NCBI RefSeq assembly: GCF_014697545.1
Contig: NZ_JACJSA010000004.1
Coordinates: forward strand, 310,001 to 374,000
From: Oscillatoria sp. FACHB-1407
Lineage (GTDB): Bacteria > Cyanobacteriota > Cyanobacteriia > Elainellales > Elainellaceae
Length of the DNA stretch: 64,000 nucleotides
Direction of reading: 5' to 3'
Positions 12,712-21,695 of this stretch are shown one piece after another (position 1 is the first letter of the stretch; the number at the start of each line of letters is the position of its first letter). The notes below the pieces were generated by a model. The model did not search any database. It had not been told where the DNA came from and saw only the letters and a list, made by a program, of their open reading frames with translations. Both the position numbers and the translations under genes were made by a program.

Positions 12712-12822
12712 GGGTAGTGTTTCAGATCTGTTGCTACTAACCCCCGGCTGTCGCCGTCCCCCTTACCAAGGGGGACTATAGGGGGTCTTACAGAGGTTAT
12801 CAACAGGTTTGGAACACCACCC
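12712..12822. repeat. Dispersed 111-bp inverted-end element, family C, uninterrupted copy
   Basis: The ends are imperfect 22-bp inverted repeats: gggtagtgtttcagatctgt at the left, and gggtggtgttccaaacctgt when the right end is reverse-complemented. The core includes ccgtcccccttaccaagggg. A second copy at 20043-20454 has the same ends but is split by a 294-bp element at the position matching 'gactatag' here. Confidence 0.85.
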
Positions 12823-18703: not shown

Positions 18704-19171
18704 TTAGTTATCGATCGGCTTTGCGCCCATTCCCATCACAGCACTCTTCGTAAAGTTAATGCGCTGCTCAAAGTCTAACCCTTTGATTTGTTCAACAAAG
18801 TTATTTGTCTCAGAGGGCAACTGATAGTTAGATGGAAATCCAATAATGGAACCATTCTCCATCCCTTGAGCCAGCATCAGCCACAGTTCTAACTTGCTGC
18901 TGGAATTGAGTGCGCTGTAAGCCTGACCAATCTGGTTATTTGCACAATTAATAATGTCGCGTTGGGCTTGCAGTTGCTGATCTTGAGGCAGAGCCTGAAT
19001 CTGATCAAAGATCGCTTTGCTAGTCACTTCCACATCAATGGGAGGAGCAGGATGCAATTGATCCTTAATATCCAAGTAGCCATACCACAACAAAGCGAGT
19101 TGAGTATCCGCATCAAATTGTTTGAAATTGTCGTACGCTTGTCTGGTTTTGTTATCCGCTGTATACGTCAT
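18704..19171 (-). CDS. Helical carotenoid protein (OCP N-terminal domain homolog)
   Basis: The 155-residue product is a stand-alone version of the carotenoid-binding N-terminal domain of orange carotenoid protein. It shows the family's helical layout, with NFKQFDADTQLALLWYGYLD, INCANNQIGQAYSALNSSSK and LELWLMLAQGMENGSIIGFP. The last block corresponds to the domain's second four-helix half. Helical carotenoid proteins bind a ketocarotenoid and quench singlet oxygen, and some also quench phycobilisomes; which applies here cannot be read from sequence. No gene for the OCP C-terminal-domain homolog or FRP is nearby. A strong hairpin terminator follows. The start ATG at 19171 gives the expected N-terminus. 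Confidence 0.94.
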   Translation of the reverse strand: MTYTADNKTRQAYDNFKQFDADTQLALLWYGYLDIKDQLHPAPPIDVEVTSKAIFDQIQALPQDQQLQAQRDIINCANNQIGQAYSALNSSSKLELWLMLAQGMENGSIIGFPSNYQLPSETNNFVEQIKGLDFEQRINFTKSAVMGMGAKPIDN

Positions 19172-20018: not shown

Positions 20019-20042
20019 ATTTTTAGCTCACATCGACATTCT

Positions 20043-20454
20043 GGGTAGTGTTTCAAATCGGTTGCTATTGATCCCTGGTTGTTGCCGTCCCCCTTACCAA
20101 GGGGGACTACAGCAGGGTGGTTTCATACAAGTGAAAAATTTTTGGGCGTTGCTGAAATGACAAATGATACGTAAATTCCCAACGTGAGCGAGACGCTCAC
20201 TCTATCGGGATCATCACAAGGGAGTGCGAGCATCTTGCTCGCGATTTCATATCCTCAATCAGCAACGCCAATTTTTGCTTCGCCCCCCTAGCCCCCCAAT
20301 TTTGGGGGAAATTGGTCTGAAGTCCCCCAGAGTTGGGGGATTTAGGGGGCAAATTAAGGGGATTAAACTCCAATTCACTTTTCTTCGTGTATGTGAAACC
20401 ACCCTGGACTACAGGGGGTTCTTACAGAGGCTATCAACAGGTTTGGAACACCAT
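20043..20454. repeat. Family C element (copy 2) split by an insertion
   Basis: The left half (gggtagtgtttcaaatcggt to ccaagggggactacag) and right half (gactacagggggttcttaca to ggtttggaacaccat) together correspond to the intact copy at 12712-12822. The element at 20113-20406 lies between them. Confidence 0.88.
20113..20406. mobile_element. 294-bp non-autonomous transposable element with 8-bp target duplication
   Basis: The termini are inverted repeats: CAGGGTGGTTTCATAC at the left, and CAGGGTGGTTTCACATAC on reversing the right end (13 bp perfect, then a 2-bp offset). The element is flanked on both sides by gactacag (20105-20112 and 20407-20414). It has no transposase-length frame. The internal sequence contains a ccccccaattttgggggaaa hairpin and a gtgagcgagacgctcac palindrome. 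The 8-bp duplication and CAGGG ends would fit an ISAs1-like transposase acting in trans, but the family assignment is a guess. Confidence 0.88.
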
Positions 20455-20678
20455 CACATTCTGATCGATATCCCCGGCATCTCGCAGGTGCTGGGGATTT
20501 GTGATGAAACGGATATTCTCTTTTGTGTTACTCTTGTCTGCGCTATAAGAGATTCCATAGCTGCCCTCTCTACAGAACCTCCCGATGTATGATATAAATC
20601 TACAGTAATCGCGTCGGTAAACAGGGTTTTAAGTCTGTCGATCGTTTTCTCATTACTTATTCCAAGGGGATTACAACA

Positions 20679-21695
20679 GTGGGTATTGTCGTTGAAGATG
20701 TATCTAAGCAGTTTGGTAGCTTTCAGGCACTCGATAAGGTCAGCTTAGAGATCAAGACAGGTTCGCTGGTTGCCCTGCTTGGACCCTCTGGCTCTGGAAA
20801 GTCTACTCTACTGCGGTTGATTGCCGGATTAGAAACCCCCGATACGGGCAAAATCCTGCTAACGGGTAGAGATGCCACTCATGAGAGCGTACAAGATCGC
20901 AATATCGGGTTTGTGTTTCAGCACTATGCTCTGTTCAAGCACATGACCGTTCGCAGAAACATTGCGTTTGGGTTAGAGATTCGTAAGACCCCTCCTAATA
21001 AAGTCAAACATCGGGTCGAAGAGTTGCTGGAACTGGTGCAATTAAAGGGACTGGGCGATCGCTATCCTTCCCAGTTGTCGGGCGGTCAGCGGCAAAGAGT
21101 CGCTCTGGCGCGTGCCCTGGCAGTGGAGCCAAAAGTCCTGCTGCTTGACGAACCCTTTGGTGCGTTAGATGCCAAAGTGCGAAAAGACTTGCGAGCCTGG
21201 TTACGTCGCCTGCATGATGAAGTCCACGTCACGACCGTTTTTGTTACCCACGACCAGGAAGAAGCGATGGAAGTCGCTGACGAAATTGTGGTCATGAACA
21301 AAGGGCAGATTGAGCAAGTAGGCACTCCGGCTGAAATTTACGACAATCCGGCAACGGCATTTGTCATGAGCTTTATTGGACCTGTCAATGTCTTGCCCAG
21401 CACTTCAAATATCTTCCAGGACAACGGCTTTGACTCCGCTCTACCAGAAGTATTCTTGCGTCCGCAGGATGTCGTGATCCAAACCGAACCTAACGGCACC
21501 ACGGTTTCCGCTCGTGTGAGTCGTTTGATTCACCTGGGATGGGAGATTCAAGCCGAATTGACCCTCGATGACGGGCAAGTCGTTACCGCTCACCTGACGC
21601 GCGATCGCTTTGATGAACTCAAACTAGAACCTCAGCAACGAGTCTACGTCAAACCCAAAGAGGCAAAGGCATTTCCGATCTACTACTCAATTTGA
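20679..21695 (+). CDS. cysA: Sulfate/thiosulfate ABC transporter ATP-binding protein
   Basis: The 338-residue protein is a CysA-type importer ATPase. It has Walker [11 protein letters not shown]-loop [12 protein letters not shown] (the 'FKHMT' wording is typical of CysA), signature [14 protein letters not shown], Walker [13 protein letters not shown] and H-loop [12 protein letters not shown]. The C-terminal TOBE-like domain (about 240-338) includes [12 protein letters not shown] and [11 protein letters not shown]. It should energise the CysT/CysW permease with the Sbp/CysP binding proteins, none of which are in the window. The start is GTG 20679 ([12 protein letters not shown]), with AAGGGG about 11 nt upstream. 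Being solitary is unusual, since cysA usually lies with cysTW. Confidence 0.92.

Follow-up and report, generated by a model that had tools for sequence, protein, structure and literature searches.

Three nested miniature elements in a cyanobacterial genome and the 19-20-bp target duplications of an ISAs1-related group

A 294-bp segment with inverted ends, flanked by the same 8 bp on both sides, interrupts a short repeat in the 64-kb window (the whole stretch of DNA analysed here, G000:C4:310001-374000 of an 8.13-Mb genome in 66 contigs). An earlier note, made from the sequence of this window, took the segment for one mobile element that duplicates 8 bp of its target. Is it a single guest in a single host, and is 8 bp the duplication length of its family?

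Layout of the nest

The inverted ends of the guest, CAGGGTGGTTTCA at 20113-20125 and its inverted copy at 20394-20406, are perfect over 13 bp, and GACTACAG is present on both sides, at 20105-20112 and 20407-20414, as the note had described. The two guest ends are the only exact matches of CAGGGTGGTTTCA in the window (4 matches with up to two mismatches, 2.0 expected by chance), and genome-wide there are 13 exact matches versus 0 for the reversed control. Without the insert and one GACTACAG, the host can be aligned end to end, with approximately 90% identity, with an uninterrupted copy in the same window (110 versus 109 bp), which bears out the proposed empty site. The host was found as described, except that its limits and those of the intact copy lie about one base inside the bounds first given.

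A whole-genome search with the guest as query divided it into two unrelated parts. Guest positions 1-32 and 158-294 recur together as a 161-bp unit, e.g. at G000:C1:559678-559838, and positions 33-157 are found elsewhere on their own, as a 125-bp unit. The supposed 294-bp element is in reality a 161-bp element, G, split by a 125-bp element, T, with an 8-bp duplication of its own. Three families are nested, with C outermost, G in C, and T in G, as follows (window coordinates).

12713-12821, + strand: uninterrupted C copy of 109 bp, the empty site for G (whole-length alignment)
20036-20043, + strand: left target duplication of C, ACATTCTG (identical to 20456-20463; repeats of 8-9 bp occur around other C copies)
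20044-20455, + strand: host element C, most likely an IS1-type miniature element, interrupted by the guest (whole-length alignment to 12713-12821)
20093-20112, + strand: full 20-bp target of G, CTTACCAAGGGGGACTACAG, left copy intact (the 20-mer also flanks G at G000:C1:559678)
20113-20406, + strand: guest element G, an ISAs1-type miniature element (161 bp plus T and the T duplication; uninterrupted 161-bp copies occur elsewhere)
20137-20144, + strand: left target duplication of T, AATTTTTG (exact match to 20270-20277)
20145-20269, + strand: innermost element T, 125 bp, with ends GGCGTTGCTGA, most likely an IS1-type miniature element (independent copies and a 475-bp IS1 deletion derivative)
20270-20277, + strand: right target duplication of T, AATTTTTG (matches the left duplication)
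20407-20414, + strand: right flank of G, GACTACAG, most likely what is left, 8 bp, of a 20-bp duplication
20456-20463, + strand: right target duplication of C, ACATTCTG (matches the left duplication)

The arithmetic of the nest is exact (161 + 125 + 8 = 294 bp). Restored G, with T and one AATTTTTG removed, is 161 bp long and aligns over its whole length to an intact copy, and restored C is 110 bp long (20044-20112 plus 20415-20455). Uninterrupted G holds a single AATTTTTG, and the G copy of the window has AATTTTTG on both sides of T. That the elements are nested, non-autonomous inverted-repeat elements without a transposase inside was correctly recognized before; the flanking repeat ACATTCTG of C was missing from that account. 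A three-level nest is in itself ordinary. The neighbors of this one are a gene for an orange carotenoid protein N-terminal domain (18704-19171, - strand), with an unassigned 151-aa frame in between, and, on the other side, an ABC transporter ATPase with a TOBE domain (20679-21695, + strand).

A single 294-bp guest in one host element, with a true 8-bp target duplication, would agree with the exact match of GACTACAG on both sides, but we regard it as improbable, since two independent repeat families make up the guest and 49 of 57 related insertions carry 19-20 bp, one of them at the very same site of another C copy (see below).

From the nesting the order of arrival is C, then G, then T. The note had placed guest after host, which stands, and the third level was absent from its account. 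Divergence fits this order, with C approximately 90% and G approximately 95% identical to the copies compared, and T 98-100% identical to its best copies. The reverse nesting, a G copy within a T copy, is found at G000:C7:235877-236167 (loci L034 and L036), and hence there was an overlap in time between the activity of G and that of T. Nested copies of this kind give relative dates for three families.

At least 40 C copies of near full length are present in the genome, and where their duplications are preserved these are mostly 8-9 bp; the intact copy at 12713-12821 has no clear flanking repeat of its own. The genome has 15 matches to IS1 (NF033558), and C-like ends, with several mismatches, are found on several of its IS1 elements, e.g. 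the 837-bp L368. With 8-9-bp duplications and ends in common with an IS1 element, C is most likely an IS1-type miniature element, an assignment we make with moderate certainty. Most T copies elsewhere have exact 8-9-bp repeats, and T ends are found on a 475-bp IS1 deletion derivative, in which parts of IS1 transposase genes are preserved. This derivative is the sole carrier found, no intact IS1 element with T ends having turned up. T, too, is most likely an IS1-type miniature element, with lower certainty than C. Both resemble the IS1 family in ends that start with GG, in 8-9-bp duplications and in the similar ends on IS1 elements of this genome, for T those of the 475-bp derivative, but unlike that family they are non-coding and only 109-125 bp long, and the ends of the full-length elements corresponding to C and T match in part only.

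One further C copy, split by a contig break between C1 and C25 (G000:C1:1-254, L275, and the end of G000:C25, L276), appears to carry an IS66-like insertion in its hairpin, with the 8-bp repeat AGGGGGAC; it seems to occupy the same hairpin as the G insertions. The insertion has a weak match (E 2.8e-4) to DUF6444, a domain that occurs in IS66-type proteins. The C ends at these contig ends had raised the suspicion of a C-ended IS, a candidate that was rejected when they were seen to belong to another insertion inside C with the AGGGGGAC repeat.

Target duplication and target site of G

Repeats around other G copies had been expected to be 8 bp long. Instead, G copies in the genome are flanked by repeats of 19-20 bp, e.g. 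CTGTCAGTTCAGCCCACAG, CTACATTCCCCAAAATTGG and CCCAGTCCCTTTGAAAAGG. When all G-like end pairs were pooled, with loci from the window's genome and from other genomes, 57 distinct G-type insertions had a scorable repeat, which was 19 bp in 33 cases and 20 bp in 16. Of the remaining repeats, seven had lengths of 12 to 22 bp, and 8 bp was seen in the window copy alone, so that the 8-bp rule had to be given up.

To the left of the window copy the 20-mer CTTACCAAGGGGGACTACAG is complete, and to the right only its last 8 bp are present. Another C-type sequence carries a G copy, reversed in orientation, at this very site (G000:C1:559678); the 20-bp repeat of that copy, CTGTAGTCCCCCTTGGTAAG, is the reverse complement of CTTACCAAGGGGGACTACAG with one indel. 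In addition, a solo G end lies directly against this C site at G000:C20:28289. Because the duplication is 20 bp long where G entered this site in another C copy, the 8 bp in the window are most likely a 20-bp duplication whose right copy is short of the 12 bp next to the element.

A different explanation is that G was inserted with a real 8-bp stagger by a transposase of variable cut spacing (8 to 22 bp), and that nothing was lost. The few copies whose scorable repeats deviate from 19-20 bp, with 12 and 13 bp among the lengths, are in line with this, but 8 bp was seen in 1 of 57 insertions, and most of the deviating repeats differ by just 1-3 bp or look degraded; we therefore give it little probability. 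Some G-type cuts may nevertheless be shorter than 19-20 bp, considering the 8 bp of the window copy and the 12-bp repeat of one relative copy (L107). Our reading of the window copy as a shortened 20-bp duplication is a caution against trusting a short perfect repeat that surrounds a single copy; here, the 8 bp would have led to a wrong family rule.

Empty sites reconstructed from 39 near-exact repeats read CCC-N17/18-GGG across the two edges, which fall after the second C and after the first G (edge composition of the 39 sites 83-96% C and 75-93% G). The self-complementarity of the empty sites was 0.42, versus 0.26 for shuffled and 0.25 for random sequences. The C element offers a site of the CCC-N17/18-GGG type, and this would account for the presence of at least three G insertions there.

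A fourth repeat, ATACCAATTTGAATTGG...GGGCGTTTCGCGAAACGCCC, was observed in or beside G and C elements at G000:C6:294660-294930 (L032), as well as beside L030 and L031 and inside L282.

Full-length partner of G and a proposed history

A search of the window's genome for a full-length partner of G found none, and no ISAs1 transposase was detectable there. L012 (G000:C20), suspected to be a full-length IS, was rejected as a solo G end. A pattern scan of the genome collection did, among the matches listed, give a 1174-bp element in Scytonema sp. NIES-4073 that has the ends of G, and also G-type ends in Nostoc, Anabaena, Chamaesiphon and others, the named genomes among these matches being almost all cyanobacteria. 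The 21 Scytonema copies among the matches listed differ by at most one base, and 16 of the 21 have exact repeats of at least 17 bp; this near-identity, together with the exact repeats, suggests a very recent burst of the element in that strain. In the same genome, a 2316-bp element with G-type ends (L203 496-2811) holds a further frame of 305 codons, apparently a second transposon nested in the ISAs1-type IS.

The 1174-bp element encodes an ISAs1-family transposase, and ISAs1, which the earlier note had named as one lead, thus proved to be a good one. The transposase is in two frames, both of which match NF033564 above its curated cut-off (2.7e-25 and 5.2e-32) and which join at profile position 150, with PF13808 in the first frame. 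Its terminal inverted repeats, CAGGGTGGTTTCAT, start with CAGGG, as expected of ISAs1 (canonical members CAGGGC.../CAGGGT...). In contrast to the single frame of that family, two frames meet at an A8 run in nearly all elements of this type. The CC-A8-C run at the join, with a -1 offset, is kept in homologues down to approximately 45% identity, and the split at this run is seen in L154, L144, L246, L284 and other ISAs1-family elements; L265, without the A8 run, reads in a single frame. Judged from these sequences, the pattern points to programmed -1 frameshifting or transcriptional slippage at the A8 run. The frame split by itself is not new, since ISAcma12, also in two frames, is annotated as a single 1090-nt CDS.

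ISAs1 family elements duplicate 8-10 bp of their target. The 19-20-bp duplications in 49 of 57 insertions place the partner of G in a variant subgroup related to ISAs1 rather than among its typical members. G itself has the properties of a miniature derivative, with a length of 161 bp, 13-bp perfect ends, 19-20-bp repeats, no transposase, and the ends of the 1174-bp IS.

Could the three repeats instead be REP-like palindromes, structured repeats of intergenic DNA that recombination or replication slippage, and not transposition, has spread? All three are short and non-coding, and GC palindromes are abundant in them. Against this, their boundaries are exact, their family-specific direct repeats are of nearly fixed length, and their inverted ends match transposase-bearing elements, and we consider such an origin extremely improbable.

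We thus favor a history of successive insertions. The IS1-type miniature element C would have inserted first, duplicating ACATTCTG. G would then have inserted at the CCCC...GGGG site in C, with a 19-20-bp staggered cut instead of the 10 bp usual for the family, presumably mobilized in trans by an ISAs1-family transposase of the special subgroup; with no ISAs1 transposase found in the window's genome, this step is deduced from other species. Twelve bases of the right-hand G duplication, beside the element, would later have been lost, leaving 8 bp, and the IS1-type miniature element T would have inserted last, into G, duplicating AATTTTTG. As 19-20 bp correspond to about two helical turns and 10 bp to about one, the transposase complex may join sites one turn further apart. 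Taken as a whole, the account of a three-level nest, successive insertions, the 19-20-bp cut of G and the 12-bp loss is in our judgment highly probable.

Long and short duplications in related elements

IS families and groups are defined with the help of target-duplication length, which mirrors the geometry of the complex between transposase and target. By the same method as above, exact 10-bp repeats were found for ISAs1, ISEc1-like elements, ISAzs11, ISPa60, ISAs12 and cyanobacterial single-frame elements; left out of these controls were ISKpn31 and certain other loci for which the automatic search gave no credible inverted-end pair. Two-frame elements with CAGGGCT-type, CAGGGTTA or CAGGGTTG ends had 10-11 bp, and those with CAGGGTGG ends had 19-20 bp. 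In a maximum-likelihood tree built from 33 transposases, one clade (support 99/93) takes in all eight elements with 19-20 bp; it also holds two elements with unreadable repeats and is surrounded by two-frame 10-11-bp elements.

On the simplest reading of this tree the long repeat would have arisen once. It is likely that a cyanobacterial clade switched from a 10-bp to a 19-20-bp cut at CCC-N17/18-GGG sites, with a transposase that is mostly -1-frameshifted and with miniature elements that outlive it in genomes like that of the window. No description of a long-duplication ISAs1 group was found in the open-access papers searched, and an earlier ISfinder record is possible. The doubling from approximately 10 to 19-20 bp in one clade of homologous transposases offers a natural comparison for the determinants of cut spacing.

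The canonical ISAs1 family has a homologous transposase (NF033564) and ends that begin with CAGGG or CAAGG, but differs by its one open frame and exact 10-bp duplications. ISAcma12 of Acaryochloris, in the same family, is alike in having its transposase in two frames with an A7+C run, whereas its ends are CAGGGTTGTTTTA and its duplication is 10 bp. ISPlr1, the ISAs1-family element of Planktothrix, has 10-bp direct repeats and inserts into GC-rich palindromic repeats (PMC4766695, PMC9366434). Its ends, CAGGGCTGTTTCA, resemble CAGGGTGGTTTCA of G, but it is autonomous and has 10-bp repeats, in contrast to the 19-20 bp of the G family. Its ends place ISPlr1 with the 10-bp group, and since it fits there, the preference for palindromes is probably older than the doubling of the duplication. 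The IS1202 group, in which a long-duplication subgroup (16-28 bp) exists beside short-duplication relatives (PMC10132070), is a precedent for such a subgroup, albeit in an unrelated transposase family and with no target sequence found for its long-duplication group.
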